In this document: piece by piece, positions 2,774-8,140 of the stretch
Layout: the number at the start of each line of letters is the position of its first letter
Numbering within the stretch: position 1 is the first letter of the stretch
Assembly (NCBI GenBank): GCA_945890705.1
Contig: CAMDCY010000001.1
Span: forward strand, 1-64,000
Direction of reading: 5' to 3'
DNA length: 64,000 nt
Source of the DNA: Hydrogenophaga intermedia
GTDB lineage: Bacteria; Pseudomonadota; Gammaproteobacteria; Burkholderiales; Burkholderiaceae_C
The notes under the pieces: model-generated
Seen by the model: the letters and a program-made list of their open reading frames with translations, nothing else
The model's database searches: none
Told to the model about the DNA's origin: nothing
Made by a program: the position numbers and the translations under genes

Positions 2774-5185
2774 TTACAAGTTGGCACCGTGCTCGCGCAG
2801 CGCTTTCCAGGTACGGAATGCGTTGTGTGGCATGTCCAAGTGCGTGACACCCAGGTGAGAGAAGGCATCGACCACGGCCGAGGTGAAGGTGGGGATGGAG
2901 CCAACGTGGGGCGACTCGGCCACGCCCTTGGCGCCCAGTGGGTGGTGCGGCGATGGCGTGACGGTGTGGTCGGTTTCCCAATGTGGTGTTTCCACAAAAG
3001 TGGGCAAGAAGTAGTCCATCAGCGTGTTGCCCAACAGATTACCCTGTGCGTCGAACGGCATTTGCTGGCCCATGGCCACCGCAAAACCTTCGGTCAAACC
3101 GCCGTGAATTTGGCCGTCGATGATCATCGGGTTGATGCGGGTGCCGCAGTCGTCCAGCGCATAGAAGCGACGGACTTTGGTTTCACCCGTGGTGCGGTCG
3201 ATATCGACCACACACAGGTAAATGCCGAAGGGGAAGGTGAAGTTCGGTGGGTCGTAGTAGTGCACGGCCTCCAAGCCCGGCTCCATGCCGTCCGGTGGCA
3301 GGTGGTAAGCCTGCCAAGCCACGTCGGCCATGGTTTTGAACTTGCTGTCGTCGCCCTTGACCTTGAAGCGGTCGACTTCCCAATCGAGGTCGGCTTCGTT
3401 GACTTCGAGCATGTGGGCCGCGATCTTGCGGGCCTTGGCGTGGATCTTTCGCGCAGCCAAGGCAATGGCGGCGCCAGCCACGGGGGTGGAGCGCGAACCA
3501 TAGGTGCCCAAGCCGTAAGGGGCGGTGCTGGTGTCGCCCTCTTCCACCTGAATCACCTCAGACGGAATGCCCAGCTCGGTGGCGATGATCTGCGCGTAGG
3601 TGGTCTGGTGTCCCTGACCTTGCGTGATCGTGCCCATGCGAGCGATGGCGCTGCCGGTGGGGTGGATGCGGATTTCGCAGGAGTCGAACATGCCCACGCC
3701 CAAGATGTCGCACATCTTGGAGGGACCGGCACCGACCACTTCGGTGAAGGTGACCAAGCCAATGCCCATCAGCGTGGGGCTGTTGGGGTCGGCGCGTTTG
3801 GCCGCTTGCTCGGCGCGCAGACCTTTGTAGTCCACGGCCGCCAGCACCTTGTCCAGCGCGGTTTGGTAGTCGCCCGAGTCGTACTCAAAACCGAAGGCGC
3901 TGGTGTAGGGGAACTGGTCTTTCTTGACGAAGTTCTTGGCGCGGATCTCGGCCTTGTCCATGCCCAACTTTTGCGCTAACACGTCGACCATGCGCTCGAT
4001 CAGGTACACGGCTTCGGTCACGCGGAAAGAGCAGCGGTACGCCACGCCACCGGGGGCCTTGTTGGTGTAGACGCCCTTGACGCTCGCGTGCGCAGCGGGG
4101 ATGTCGTAGGAACCCGAGACGATGTGAAACATGCCAGCGGGGAACTTGGTCGGGTCGGCACAAGCGTCGAACGCGCCGTGGTCGGCGATGACGTTGACGC
4201 GCAAACCGGTGATCTTGCCGTCGGCGGTGGCGGCCAATTCGCCGTCCATGTGGTAGTCGCGGGCGAAGGCCGTCGACGAGATGTTTTCGATGCGGTCTTC
4301 CACCCATTTCACGGGGCGGCCCAAGACGATGGAGGCCACGATGGCGCACACATAACCGGGGTAGATACCGACCTTGTTGCCAAAGCCGCCACCGATGTCG
4401 GGGCTGACGATGCGCACCTTGGATTCGGGGATACCCGACAACATGGACACCACGGTCCGCACCACGTGGGGCGCTTGGCTGGTGATGAAGGTGGTCAGGT
4501 CGCCCTTGATCGGGTCGAAGCTGGCCACACAACCGCAGGTCTCCAGCGGGCAAGGGTGCACGCGGGGGTAGTACATGTGCTGCGAGACGGTCACGGCAGC
4601 GTTGGCAAACGCGGCATCGGCTGCGGCCTTATCGCCCGCGTCCCAAGTGAAAATGTGGTTGTGGTGATCGCGCTTGCCGTGCGCACCTTCGGTCTTGCCG
4701 GCCAAATCGTCACGGATGACGGGTGCGCCGGGCTGCAGTGCAGCGTAAGGATCCATGACCACGGGCAGCTCTTCGTATTCGACTTCCACGGCCTCCACCG
4801 CATCGGCCGCGATGTAGCGGTCATCGGCGATCACAATGGCCACTTCTTGCATTTGGAAGTGCACTTTTTCATCGGCCAACACCGCGGCCACGTCACCCGC
4901 CAAGGTGGGCATCCAGTGCAGTTTCAGGGGCTTCAAGTCGTCGGCGGTGAGCACGGCGTGCACGCCGGGAATGGCCAGCGCGGCTTCTTTGTTGATGCGC
5001 TTGATGCGGCCGTGGGCGATGGGGCTACGCACGATGTCCATGTGCAGCATGCCGGCCATTTTGATGTCGTCAACGTAGTTGCCCTTGCCTTGGATAAAGC
5101 GAGCATCTTCTTTGCGCAGGCGCGATGCGCCCATGCCTGCCAGCGCGAGTTCGCGGGCTTCTGCGGATGGTACCGGTGCGTTCAT
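2774..5185 (-). CDS. coxL: Form I aerobic carbon monoxide dehydrogenase, large subunit
   Basis: An 803-residue molybdenum hydroxylase large subunit that would oxidise CO with water to CO2 and pass electrons to the quinone pool through CoxS and CoxM. The diagnostic active-site loop AYRCSFR is present with its copper-binding cysteine at residue 385; form II relatives have AYRGAGR instead. The catalytic glutamate is visible in GVAES near residue 757, and GGGFGNK near 265-271 is the usual cofactor-contacting loop. Length matches characterised form I CoxL (about 809 residues). The start is preceded by GGAG. It follows coxS by 29 bases. Sequence alone cannot show that the Cu-Mo centre is assembled, but every key residue I can place is intact. 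Confidence 0.97.
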   Translation of the reverse strand: MNAPVPSAEARELALAGMGASRLRKEDARFIQGKGNYVDDIKMAGMLHMDIVRSPIAHGRIKRINKEAALAIPGVHAVLTADDLKPLKLHWMPTLAGDVAAVLADEKVHFQMQEVAIVIADDRYIAADAVEAVEVEYEELPVVMDPYAALQPGAPVIRDDLAGKTEGAHGKRDHHNHIFTWDAGDKAAADAAFANAAVTVSQHMYYPRVHPCPLETCGCVASFDPIKGDLTTFITSQAPHVVRTVVSMLSGIPESKVRIVSPDIGGGFGNKVGIYPGYVCAIVASIVLGRPVKWVEDRIENISSTAFARDYHMDGELAATADGKITGLRVNVIADHGAFDACADPTKFPAGMFHIVSGSYDIPAAHASVKGVYTNKAPGGVAYRCSFRVTEAVYLIERMVDVLAQKLGMDKAEIRAKNFVKKDQFPYTSAFGFEYDSGDYQTALDKVLAAVDYKGLRAEQAAKRADPNSPTLMGIGLVTFTEVVGAGPSKMCDILGVGMFDSCEIRIHPTGSAIARMGTITQGQGHQTTYAQIIATELGIPSEVIQVEEGDTSTAPYGLGTYGSRSTPVAGAAIALAARKIHAKARKIAAHMLEVNEADLDWEVDRFKVKGDDSKFKTMADVAWQAYHLPPDGMEPGLEAVHYYDPPNFTFPFGIYLCVVDIDRTTGETKVRRFYALDDCGTRINPMIIDGQIHGGLTEGFAVAMGQQMPFDAQGNLLGNTLMDYFLPTFVETPHWETDHTVTPSPHHPLGAKGVAESPHVGSIPTFTSAVVDAFSHLGVTHLDMPHNAFRTWKALREHGANL

Positions 5186-5214: not shown

Positions 5215-5700
5215 TCAAGCCGCGACGGGCTCTTGCAGCTTTTTGGCGGCGTACTGGACGGCTTTGATGATGTTTTGGTAGCCCGTGCAGCGGCACAGGT
5301 TGCCGGCCATGCCGTGGCGGATTTCGTCTTCGGTGGGGTTGGGGTTCTCTTGTAAGAATCGGTAGGCGCGCATGAGCATGCCGGGGGTGCAGAAGCCGCA
5401 CTGCAGGCCGTGCTCTTTGTAGAAGCCCTCTTGCACGGCGTGCAACACACCTTTGTTGGCCAAGCCTTCAACGGTCAGCACTTCCGAGCCATCGCACTGC
5501 ACCGCCAAATGGGTGCACGACTTGACCGAGCGGCCGTCGATGTCCACGGTGCACACGCCGCAGTGGCTGGTCTCACAACCGATGTGGGCGCCAGTGAGGT
5601 TGAGCTCTTCGCGCAAAAAGTGGATCAGCAGGGTGCGGGGCTCAACGGCTTTCTCTTCTTTCTTGCCGTTGATCGAAACGGTGATGAGTTTTTTCGTCAT
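5215..5700 (-). CDS. coxS: CO dehydrogenase small subunit, two [2Fe-2S] clusters
   Basis: A 161-residue iron-sulfur subunit. All eight cluster cysteines are visible: C42, C47, C50 and C62 for the ferredoxin-like N-terminal cluster, and C101, C104, C136 and C138 for the helical C-terminal cluster (CGFC and CRC motifs). It relays electrons from the Mo-Cu site of CoxL to the FAD of CoxM. A GGAG ribosome binding site precedes the ATG. Gene order coxM-coxS-coxL is the standard one and spacing is short on both sides. Small subunits of xanthine-oxidase relatives look alike; CoxL decides the substrate. Confidence 0.96.
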
Positions 5701-5715: not shown

Positions 5716-6579
5716 TTATGAGCACTGAGCCCAGGCTTTGTTGAGGGCACGCTTGACCATGGCACCGGCCATGGCGGTTTTGTATTCCACGTCACCGCGC
5801 AGGTCTTCGGCCGGGTCGCATATAGCGATGGCCGCATCCACCGCGGCTTGCACGTTGGCGGCGTTGAAGGGTTTGCCCAGCAAGGCGGCTTCGGCGGCTT
5901 CGGCGCGCAAAGCGGTGGGCGCGACGTTGGTCAGGCCAATGCGCACGTGGCTGACTTGGTCGCCGCTTTTGCGGATCACCACCGCGCAACCGGCCGTGGC
6001 CCAGTCACCGGTTTTGCGTTTGAGTTTTTCGTAAGCGCTGCCGGTGCCCTTGGCGAACGCCGGCACGCGAATGGCCACCATCACCTCGTTTTCTTCGAGC
6101 AGCGTCATGTAGGTGCCCAAGAAGAAACCGTTGGCGGCCACGGTACGGCGGCCCTTGGGGCCTTCGAGCACGAACTCGGCGTCGCACACCAAGGACAGCG
6201 CGGGGTGGTCGTTGCCGGGGTCACCGTGGGCGATGTCACCACCGATGGTGCCGCGGTTGCGTACCTGAGGGTCGGCGATCAGCTTGGCCGCTTCGGATAA
6301 CAAAGGCACCTTGGCTTGCAAAATGGGGGAGTCGATCAGGTCGTTTTCGACCGTCATCGCGCCAATCACCACGGTATTGCCGTCTTCGCAAATGCCGCGC
6401 AACTCGGGAATGCGGTTGATGTCGATCAGGTGCTCAGGCTGCGCAAAACGCAGCTTCATCATGGGCAAGAGGCTGTGGCCGCCGGCCAGCAGTTTGGCGT
6501 CGGAGCCGTATTGGCCCAGCAAGGCCACGGCCTCGCCGATGGACTTGGGTGCGTGGTACTCAAAACTCGGTGGGATCAT
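5716..6579 (-). CDS. coxM: CO dehydrogenase medium subunit, FAD-binding
   Basis: A 287-residue FAD subunit of the CO dehydrogenase-MSL complex. FAD-binding motifs AGGHS (residues 32-36) and TIGGD (111-115) are intact. I chose the ATG at 6579 rather than the longer frame: the protein then begins MIPPSFEYHAPKS like characterised CoxM, and AAGGAG lies six bases upstream. It is the first gene of the cox operon. Its 200-base upstream gap from rcoM carries 21-bp phased repeats and two dyads, which suggests the main regulated promoter lies there. Confidence 0.96.
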   Translation of the reverse strand: MIPPSFEYHAPKSIGEAVALLGQYGSDAKLLAGGHSLLPMMKLRFAQPEHLIDINRIPELRGICEDGNTVVIGAMTVENDLIDSPILQAKVPLLSEAAKLIADPQVRNRGTIGGDIAHGDPGNDHPALSLVCDAEFVLEGPKGRRTVAANGFFLGTYMTLLEENEVMVAIRVPAFAKGTGSAYEKLKRKTGDWATAGCAVVIRKSGDQVSHVRIGLTNVAPTALRAEAAEAALLGKPFNAANVQAAVDAAIAICDPAEDLRGDVEYKTAMAGAMVKRALNKAWAQCS

Positions 6580-6591
6580 GGTATCTCCTTG

Positions 6592-6628
6592 TTTGTCATT
6601 GACAAATATCAATGTAAGGGGATTGATA
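6592..6628. promoter_or_regulatory. Two abutting inverted repeats in the coxM leader
   Basis: Two dyads sit back to back just before the coxM ribosome binding site. One is TTTGTCA-T-TGACAAA (6592-6606), perfect over seven bases per arm. The other is TATCAAT-N8-ATTGATA (6607-6628), also seven per arm. In the coxM mRNA an alternative stem (AUUGA with UCAAU) can form across the junction. They could be operators for a second regulator or a leader RNA switch; the sequence does not decide which. Confidence 0.55.
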
Positions 6629-6683
6629 ACCTGACTGCAATAAGGGGTTATTAAGCGTCACGAGCCCCTAAGTCCTACCTCTA

Positions 6684-6732
6684 GCACGAAACGCTCAGGA
6701 TCGTGCACGAACCGCTTTGTTCTGAACAAAAT
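6684..6732 (-). promoter_or_regulatory. Candidate RcoM operator: direct repeats phased at 21 bp
   Basis: Read on the minus strand, GCGGTTCGTGC (6715-6705) and GCGTTTCGTGC (6694-6684) are direct repeats exactly 21 bp apart. A weaker third copy (ATTTTG core, 6732-6727) lies another 21 bp upstream. RcoM from Burkholderia xenovorans is known to bind three direct repeats spaced 21 bp with a TTnnnG core; both good copies here contain TTCGTG. Position between rcoM and coxM fits an activator site for the cox operon. I could not identify a convincing promoter hexamer pair. Confidence 0.65.
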
Positions 6733-6777
6733 GCAAAAAATCGGACGGGAAAACCCCAACAAAAAAGGACCTATCGT

Positions 6778-7518
6778 TTACCCTAGGCCGAGCTGTTTTT
6801 TGAGCCGACTGGCGATCACGCGGGAAACCGGCACCAAAATTTCAGGGTGGTGGTGAAACTGCAGCAAGGTCTTGGCACCGTCGCGCTGCAGGCAATCGAT
6901 CGCCCCCACGTTGACCAAGTAGCGCCGGTGCACGCGCATAAAAACCTCGGGGTCAAGCCGGTCTTGCAGGTCACCGATGCTGAGGTTGCAGAAGTGCCAA
7001 CCTTCCATGGTCAAAACACGGCAATAGTGGCCGTCGGACTCGATGGCGCACACTGTGTTCACGTCCAAAAAACTCACCCGGTTGTCCACCGCCACGGGCA
7101 AGCGCAACAGGCGGCGTGAGTTGGCCGGTTCGGGCTCGGTCTCTTGGGTGCTGACGATTGCGGTGACGTCGTAGAACACCAGCACAAAGCCGCTGAGCTG
7201 CTGCGCCATGTCGGTCAGACGGGTGACTTTGATGAGCAAAATTTGCTCGGGAATGTTGATGATCATCGTCATCGGCACGTTCTGCGCCACTGGGCAAGTG
7301 CTGGCCTGATCGATGAGGAAGTTGACCTTGGGGCGCGAGCGTTCGGGGTGGAAGTCCAGCACGAAGCGGTCGAAGGGCTTCATTGTGTCGATGGGCAAAA
7401 TGCGGCGCGCAAAATCGTTCAAACCCACGACGTGGCGCTGGGCGTTGAGGTGGATCACACCGGCTTCGAACTTTTCAAACAAGTACAGCGGTGAATGGGG
7501 GAATGGGGCAGCGCTCAT
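6778..7518 (-). CDS. rcoM: RcoM-like haem-PAS/LytTR CO-responsive transcription factor
   Basis: A 246-residue single-component regulator. Residues about 12-122 form a PAS domain and about 140-246 a LytTR DNA-binding domain (DGHYCRVLT, MRVHRRYLVN and LVPVSRV are typical). It matches RcoM, the CO sensor of Burkholderia xenovorans: the haem ligand His is at H57 in FHPERSR, the redox-exchanged thiolate at C75 in TCPV, and the CO-displaced Met at M85, ten residues after the Cys as in RcoM. I chose ATG 7518, preceded by GGAAAG; an upstream GTG at 7629 would add 37 unrelated residues. It lies directly upstream of coxM on the same strand and is divergent from umuDC. It most likely activates cox when CO is present. 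Confidence 0.9.
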   Translation of the reverse strand: MSAAPFPHSPLYLFEKFEAGVIHLNAQRHVVGLNDFARRILPIDTMKPFDRFVLDFHPERSRPKVNFLIDQASTCPVAQNVPMTMIINIPEQILLIKVTRLTDMAQQLSGFVLVFYDVTAIVSTQETEPEPANSRRLLRLPVAVDNRVSFLDVNTVCAIESDGHYCRVLTMEGWHFCNLSIGDLQDRLDPEVFMRVHRRYLVNVGAIDCLQRDGAKTLLQFHHHPEILVPVSRVIASRLKKQLGLG

Positions 7519-7587
7519 GGTTCGGTCTTTCCGGGGCAGAGGGTAGCCGATGGAGCACCCAAACCACAATTTGGCTACAAACCCCTT

Positions 7588-7622
7588 CAAAAAGAAAGCC
7601 CCTTCGTCGTGGACAAAGGGGC
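7588..7622 (-). terminator. Terminator-like hairpin in the rcoM 5' leader
   Basis: On the minus strand GCCCCTT and AAGGGGC form a seven-pair stem with an 11-base loop, followed by TTTCTTTTT. It lies between the divergent rcoM and umuD genes and points toward rcoM, so it would stop transcripts coming from the umuD side or attenuate rcoM itself. No minus-strand gene ends here. Confidence 0.5.
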
Positions 7623-7669
7623 CCAACACCGCGAGGGTGACAGGGCAACTGCGCTTGTCCTGATTTCGC

Positions 7670-7694
7670 TATGATACTGTATATGCAAACAGTA
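7670..7694 (+). promoter_or_regulatory. LexA (SOS) box overlapping the umuDC promoter
   Basis: TACTGTATATGCAAACAGTA (7675-7694) is a near-consensus LexA box (CTG-N10-CAG), and the dyad extends to GATACTGT/ACAGTATC. A -10-like TATGAT (7670-7675) overlaps its left end, so LexA would block RNA polymerase. The box ends only two bases before the umuD ATG. Confidence 0.88.
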
Positions 7695-7696
7695 TC

Positions 7697-8140
7697 ATGA
7701 TGTTCACCTCCCTGCCCCCCTACACCCCCGTGCCCATGCCCGCCTGCCCGCTGTGGGTCAATGCCGCACAGGTCAGCGTGGCCGCGGGGTTTCCGAGCCC
7801 CGCCGAAGATCACCTGGTCGAGCGCATCGACCTCATGAAGCAGCTCGTACGCCACCCCCAAGCCACGTTTTTTGTGCGCGTGGCGGGCGACTCCATGCAA
7901 GGTGCGGGCATCTTGAGCGGCTCGGTGGTCTTGGTGGACAAGGCCATTCGGCCCGCGCATGGGCACATCGTGATCGCCGTGGTCGACGGCGACTTCACCT
8001 GCAAACGCCTGCACACGCGCGGCGGCCTGCTGCGCCTCAAACCCGAAAACCCCACCTACCCCGACCTGGTGCCGCGCGAAGGTCAGTCGGTGGAAATCTG
8101 GGGCGTGGTGGTGGCCTGCATCCACCAGTACCCGGTCTGA
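7697..8140 (+). CDS. umuD: UmuD, SOS mutagenesis protein and polymerase V subunit
   Basis: A 147-residue LexA/UmuD-type S24 protein. The self-cleavage site is A30-G31 in [12 protein letters not shown], with catalytic Ser66 (GDSM) and Lys103. RecA filaments would trigger cleavage to UmuD', which joins UmuC to form the error-prone polymerase V. The ATG at 7697 (or 7700) lies right after the LexA box with no ribosome binding site, so translation may be leaderless or nearly so; the next internal ATG at 7736 also lacks a site and would remove part of the N-terminal arm. umuC follows 11 bases after the stop. Confidence 0.92.

Follow-up and report, generated by a model that had tools for sequence, protein, structure and literature searches.

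Two conserved direct repeats ahead of coxMSL in Hydrogenophaga intermedia as a predicted operator of the CO sensor RcoM

The window analysed here, a stretch of 64,000 nucleotides, harbours two direct repeats, R1 and R2, in the gap between rcoM and coxM, and we conclude with high confidence from sequence comparisons that they form the operator through which the adjacent CO sensor RcoM controls coxMSL. The first-pass annotation had already read them as an RcoM operator, and this reading is upheld by the conservation of the repeats and of their phase, by their fit to the published RcoM1 motif and spacing (PMC11347149) and by the observation that the motif follows rcoM and not cox. The repeats are very probably where RcoM binds, and sites of this kind are already known; what is new is that the site could be traced through many relatives, with a consensus and candidate promoter partners. 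In the open-licence literature, we found no mapped RcoM site for Hydrogenophaga or Limnohabitans.

The locus comprises the following genes.
6778 to 7518, minus strand: rcoM, coding for a regulator of 246 residues with a PAS-like and a LytTR region
5716 to 6579, minus strand: coxM, predicted first gene under the predicted operator
5215 to 5700, minus strand: coxS
2774 to 5185, minus strand: coxL, coding for the large subunit of aerobic CO dehydrogenase (TIGR02416), with the AYRCSFR motif present

On the minus strand, the order is thus rcoM, a 198-bp gap, coxM, coxS and coxL, with rcoM ending at 6778 and coxM starting at 6579; the site lies both beside rcoM and upstream of the CO-oxidation genes. 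CoxL scores 1551.6 bits against TIGR02416, above the curated cut-off of 991.15. Between the window and genome G260, CoxL is 98% identical and RcoM (6778-7518) is 56% identical, and this disparity suggests either a mosaic cluster or a very strong constraint on CoxL. On the other side of rcoM, a LexA-type box, CTGTATATGCAAACAG (7677-7692), precedes a umuD-like gene (7697-8140), which is followed by a umuC-like ORF.

The C-terminal part of RcoM (7518-6778) belongs to the LytTR family (PF04397, 57.6 bits, cut-off 22.6), which was the only match in the Pfam search; the PAS domain was not found in this way. The structure model is confident for the LytTR half and poor (low pLDDT) for the N-terminal half, and the matches of the latter to PAS domains, haem PAS domains among them, have E values of about 1e-3 in that region of low pLDDT. 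A sequence search of the PDB returned no match for RcoM. In an alignment, its residues His57, Cys75 and Met85 correspond to His75, Cys95 and Met105 in the protein from Paraburkholderia aromaticivorans (numbers counted by hand), and Met85 is invariant across 28 aligned proteins. The P. aromaticivorans positions are one residue on from the RcoM-1 haem ligands His74, Cys94 and Met104, the last of which is named in the title of a reference. His57, Cys75 and Met85 are likely the haem ligands of the window's RcoM. One coxM-adjacent RcoM homologue (locus L026, genome G019) lacks the His and Cys ligand positions and is found with a weaker operator (12/16); this homologue is perhaps blind to CO.

The two repeats are as follows.
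6704 to 6715, minus strand: R1, RcoM-type repeat GCGGTTCGTGCA, whose core TTCGTGCA (6711-6704) matches the family core in 8 of 8 letters
6683 to 6694, minus strand: R2, RcoM-type repeat GCGTTTCGTGCT, whose core TTCGTGCT (6690-6683) matches the family core in 7 of 8 letters

It had been claimed that GCGGTTCGTGC and GCGTTTCGTGC are exactly 21 bp apart, and this is correct: on the minus strand, their TTC triplets start at +6711 and +6690, and 10 of 11 letters are identical. When the 198-bp gap was shuffled, P for a match of at least 10/11 was 0.00085 if the spacing had to be exactly 21 bp and 0.07 if any spacing between 11 and 99 bp was allowed, so that the window taken by itself is suggestive. 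We scored the window with a matrix built from the relatives, the window excluded (two versions of the matrix differ in their pseudocounts). R1 (16.9 bits) and R2 (15.6 bits) are the top two single sites in the 64 kb on both strands, the third reaching 15.3 bits, and as a pair they total 32.5 bits, the next pair sharing neither copy having 15.6 bits. R1 has all six, and R2 five of the six, fixed letters of the published RcoM1 motif TTCNNGCA, and their 21-bp period agrees with the published spacing of 12-13 bp between 8-bp repeats, i.e. a period of 20-21 bp.

At E <= 1e-20, RcoM was detected in 26 genomes out of 299 at the level of the family, in 5 out of 399 at that of the order and in 14 out of 67 at that of the genus (overlapping counts that include the window's genome); from a further scan of named genomes, the best 80 of 264 relatives were retained. 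In a first set of 113 loci, 107 have rcoM immediately ahead of coxM in the same orientation, five are otherwise arranged and one is devoid of coxM. Tandem gaps with a length of 60 bp or more numbered 106, and removal of 16 near-duplicates left 90 non-redundant ones; L077 (10-bp gap), L151 (coxM not found) and L152 (same place as L147) were left out.

A pair of TTCGTGCA-type repeats with at least 13/16 matching letters at a distance of 20 or 21 bp is present in 83 of the 90 gaps (67 at 21 bp and 16 at 20 bp), compared with a rate of 0.00094 in shuffled sequences. Pairs reach 12/16 in 88 gaps; the seven below 13/16 are L006, L015, L026, L059, L083, L098 and L104, two of which stand at 11. Over the range of 9-63 bp, the best spacing includes 20 or 21 bp in 77 gaps and does not in the remaining 13. 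Secondary spacings of 9 bp (35/90 gaps) and 12 bp (22/90) were also seen; the second repeat is preceded, at a distance of 9 bp, by an incomplete GCGTGCA word. The consensus of 164 repeats from the 83 gaps, the window excluded, is GC(A/G)(T/G)TTCGTGCA, with a G at position 5 in 99% of them, and the distance from the pair to coxM is mostly similar among these gaps. In all 14 congeners with rcoM, including the window, a pair spaced by 21 bp matches in 14/16 letters or more; these loci overlap the set of 90 gaps. The first-pass annotation had held that a lack of conservation in related genomes would speak against its reading; instead, both letters and phase are kept in 83/90 gaps and in 14/14 congeners with rcoM. 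It is this comparison among relatives, rather than the window alone, that settles that the repeats are real.

The number of repeats is less uniform. RcoM1 and the congeners show three, and the window has two strong ones. A weaker third core, ATTTTG, had been proposed 21 bp upstream; its letters are present, but the first T of TTnnnG is missing, and this register scores -12.9 bits. Its place does not agree with the relatives either: the upstream slot is negative in 13/13 other congeners, and the downstream slot, R2+21, is positive in 11/13. The candidates for a third repeat in the window are the following.
6662 to 6673, minus strand: R3 slot (R2+21), ACTTAGGGGCTC, -22.3 bits, decayed
6723 to 6734, minus strand: upstream look-alike GCATTTTGTTCA (8.8 bits), located 19 bp ahead of R1 and overlapping a palindrome at 6730-6716

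Congeners often have GCATTTGATGCC in the R3 slot. In the window, the better of the 20- and 21-bp downstream positions scores -5.1 bits, and a TTnnnG-type TTAGGG (6671-6666) is found 19 bp from R2. Of the 83 gaps, 11 have a site above 4 bits on the upstream side at a distance of 20-22 bp and 17 have one on the downstream side, compared with 0 or 1 at control distances. We read the window as a two-repeat operator whose third repeat has decayed; since the R3 slot is decayed in this genome, predicted binding should rest on R1 and R2.

Alternatively, the RcoM operator might be a triplet completed by the upstream GCATTTTGTTCA rather than by the downstream slot. This look-alike, which scores 8.8 bits and agrees with the consensus at 10 of 12 letters, is the best third site in the window's gap, and spacings of 18-21 bp are tolerated by CoxC according to PMC11347149. 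However, it does not have the near-invariant G found in 99% of the training sites, the third slot of the congeners sits downstream, and among the 83 gaps profiled an upstream site above 0 bits at 19 bp occurs in one, namely that of the window. We consider this triplet unlikely and take the look-alike to be accidental.

A second alternative is that the repeats are bound by a different LytTR regulator, akin to CoxC or YpdB, as a direct-repeat period of two helical turns is common to LytTR proteins. YpdB binds GGCATTTCAT repeats that are 21 bp apart, as counted on the oligonucleotide printed in PMC4847170, and CoxC is described in PMC11347149 as binding three TTNNNGCN repeats at 18-21 bp. Against this, RcoM is the sole LytTR match in the window's genome (G000), though a second such protein could be missing from view because the genome is 83% complete. 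The other argument comes from loci in which RcoM and cox are dissociated. Four coxM promoters of genomes without RcoM at E <= 1e-20 have best pairs of 10, 10, 11 and 11 of 16. The fifth (G017) is ambiguous and no clean control, because its pair reaches 12/16 (12.3 bits in sum) with one good repeat, in a neighbourhood that is partly masked. Conversely, a distant RcoM (34% identity; locus L030, genome G569) is encoded divergently from cowN, a nitrogenase-protecting gene identified by the Pfam CowN family, in a genome where coxL has no hit at E <= 1e-250. Between these two genes, at 2219-2270 of L030, are the repeats GTCGTTCGTGCA, GTCGTTCATGCA and GCCGTTGGTGCA, 20 bp apart, with scores of 13.7, 11.1 and 13.1 bits; at three cowN loci in which RcoM has no match, the pairs do not exceed 9.6 bits, compared with 24.9 bits at L030. 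Thus, in the sequences compared, the motif accompanies RcoM rather than cox, since it is absent from four RcoM-less cox promoters and present at the RcoM-cowN locus, and binding by another LytTR regulator appears very improbable.

We also looked for exact TTCGTGC pairs at 20 or 21 bp in 20 whole genomes. Sixteen genomes were positive, with 20 matches, about 12 of which are cox sites by their coordinates. The other eight or so lie away from cox (e.g. in L114, genome G699), and one in the window's genome falls inside a coding ORF; it is possible that these non-cox pairs are further RcoM targets or that they occur by chance. No site above -0.4 bits was found in 7519-7760, where auto-regulation of rcoM was considered.

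The sequence also contains palindromes, TCGTGCACGA (6710-6701) over R1 and TTTGTTCAGAACAAA (6730-6716) upstream of it, which might be bound by a helix-turn-helix dimer. However, the relatives keep the letters and the period of the direct repeats and not the CACGA half (conservation of 0.48, 0.28 and 0.34 at positions 8-10 after R1), and the upstream TTTGTTCAGAACAAA has no counterpart among the 45 aligned gaps listed. As neither palindrome is conserved in the relatives, we rejected both, and binding by such a dimer is harder still to credit than the LytTR alternative. Lastly, that R1 and R2 are functionless chance repeats, for which the any-spacing P value in the window alone would leave room, is refuted by the retention of letters, phase and a mostly similar distance to coxM in 83/90 gaps of diverged genomes, and its probability is negligible.

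Downstream and upstream of the pair, the gap contains additional elements.
6611 to 6616, minus strand: predicted -10 TACATT, at R2+74
6747 to 6757, minus strand: weak remnant GGGGTTTTCCC of an upstream box, 46 bp before R1; it agrees with the consensus of the relatives at 11 of 17 letters, which within the window by itself does not reach significance
6599 to 6612, no strand assigned: Fnr/Anr-type box TTGATATTTGTCAA, an exact TTGAYN4RTCAA that overlaps the end of the predicted -10
6593 to 6605, no strand assigned: inverted repeat TTGTCAATGACAA (TTGTC-GACAA), overlapping the Fnr-type box

The predicted coxM promoter has a recognisable -10 and no clear -35, and a promoter scan returned a single poor site, over the coxM start. 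In 12/13 other congeners, TACACT or CAGACT is present at R2+75/76. If TACATT is the -10, R2 would begin at about -86, R1 at about -107 and the R3 slot at about -65, which is the place of a class-I activator. The comparisons show the repeats, their phase, their conservation and consensus and their co-occurrence with rcoM, whereas RcoM binding, its dependence on CO, activation and the start site are what we infer. CO would displace the Met ligand of the ferrous haem in the PAS domain of RcoM, and the RcoM dimer would then contact R1 and R2 through its LytTR domains, both from the same face of the helix. RcoM so bound, at about 86 to 107 bp ahead of the predicted start, would recruit RNA polymerase. 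In relatives, the slot closest to the promoter, R2+21 (about -65), holds a weaker third repeat.

The relatives' gaps also share a conserved box upstream of the pair, approximately CCTAGGRCWTWCCCTGATTGC (~GGRCWTWCCC). At least 14 of its 17 letters are found in 55/90 gaps (0.0007 in shuffles), a count that is partly circular because the consensus was drawn from the same gaps, which does not affect the position of the box. The box keeps a helical phase with the pair, lying 44 or 65 bp ahead of it: at 13/17, the distance from the start of the box to the pair is 43-46 bp in 55 gaps and 63-67 bp in another 12, the remaining 23, including the window, belonging to neither group. The 63-67 bp group is one repeat period further away, and its upstream slot holds a weak repeat. 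In the window's gap, the best 17-letter match (12/17) lies elsewhere than the remnant, and with a loose pattern a GG-CC core is found at 44-46 bp in 14/14 congeners. Genome-wide, the exact or one-mismatch box was confined to one place per genome in 7 of 12 genomes searched.

One of the RcoM-less cox promoters (L147) keeps the box as CCTAGGGTATTCCCTTGGTGC (14/17, shuffle P 0.0025), 184 bp from the start codon, compared with a median box-to-start-codon distance of 182 bp in the main group; a stricter box pattern overlooks it. In the other four RcoM-less cox promoters, a significant box was not found. The retention of the box without RcoM at L147 hints that it may be bound by another factor. Two other readings of the box were considered. 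In the window, TGGGGTTTTCCCG plus a T-run was flagged as a terminator of rcoM, which we think unlikely because relatives have no T-run after the box and because the distance between box and repeats is constant in gaps of up to 998 bp. A sigma-54 promoter was rejected since its spacing, judged by eye, does not fit.

Exact TTGAYN4RTCAA boxes are present in 8/90 gaps, all of them 33-48 bp from the start codon, compared with 0.0002 per shuffled gap. Of the 14 congeners with rcoM, a number that includes the window, nine carry such a box near the predicted -10/+1, and in one of them it is TTGATATATATCAA. Fnr is encoded in the genome (240 bits, cut-off 228), with a CX2CX5C motif recognised by eye. 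It is a fair prediction that Fnr represses coxM without oxygen in part of the lineage.

Taking these elements together, we tentatively propose, as a novel prediction of this analysis and one about which we are more doubtful than hopeful, that the coxM promoter might be a composite gate, switched on by RcoM with CO, dependent on a second, RcoM-independent factor at the CCTAGGRCWTWCCCTGATTGC box, and switched off by Fnr near -10/+1 when oxygen is absent. If so, aerobic CO oxidation would need CO, oxygen and a further signal, the box for which is retained even in an RcoM-less relative. With these further boxes, it becomes possible to test how freshwater bacteria control the oxidation of CO at atmospheric levels.

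RcoM is among the few CO-sensing transcription factors known. The consensus from 83 gaps provides a sharp motif for finding RcoM targets, of which a cowN promoter is a first example. It could also help in designing CO biosensors and in testing why repeats differ in number and strength from one operator to another.

The closest known system is the RcoM1 operator in Paraburkholderia xenovorans LB400, which PMC11347149 describes as direct TTCNNGCA repeats with 12-13 bp spacers, near rcoM and cox genes; RcoM1 is reported to act as an activator, upstream of the -35. The window resembles it in its repeat motif, spacing and rcoM/cox context. It differs in having two strong repeats and a decayed third slot, and the family consensus GC(A/G)(T/G)TTCGTGCA is tighter than the RcoM1 motif as given there. 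In addition, rcoM is upstream of coxM on the same strand in the window, whereas the two are divergent in Paraburkholderia and Caballeronia relatives. The predicted operator shares most of the RcoM1-operator features that were compared and would work like that operator. Similarly, the CoxC operator at PcoxB of Afipia carboxidovorans OM5 consists of three TTNNNGCN direct repeats and serves CO-responsive control of cox (PMC11347149). Both involve a LytTR protein and direct repeats two turns apart; however, CoxC, a membrane-bound repressor of the MHYT type, has a site that lies over the -35, whereas the window site stops well short of the predicted -10 on its upstream side. Finally, the yhjX promoter in Escherichia coli contains GGCATTTCAT twice, as YpdB sites A and B (PMC4847170). 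These sites share with the window the 21-bp spacing, and the letters GCATTTC are common to the YpdB sites and the RcoM-family consensus. In contrast to RcoM, YpdB is a response regulator and not a gas sensor, and its promoter has two sites only.
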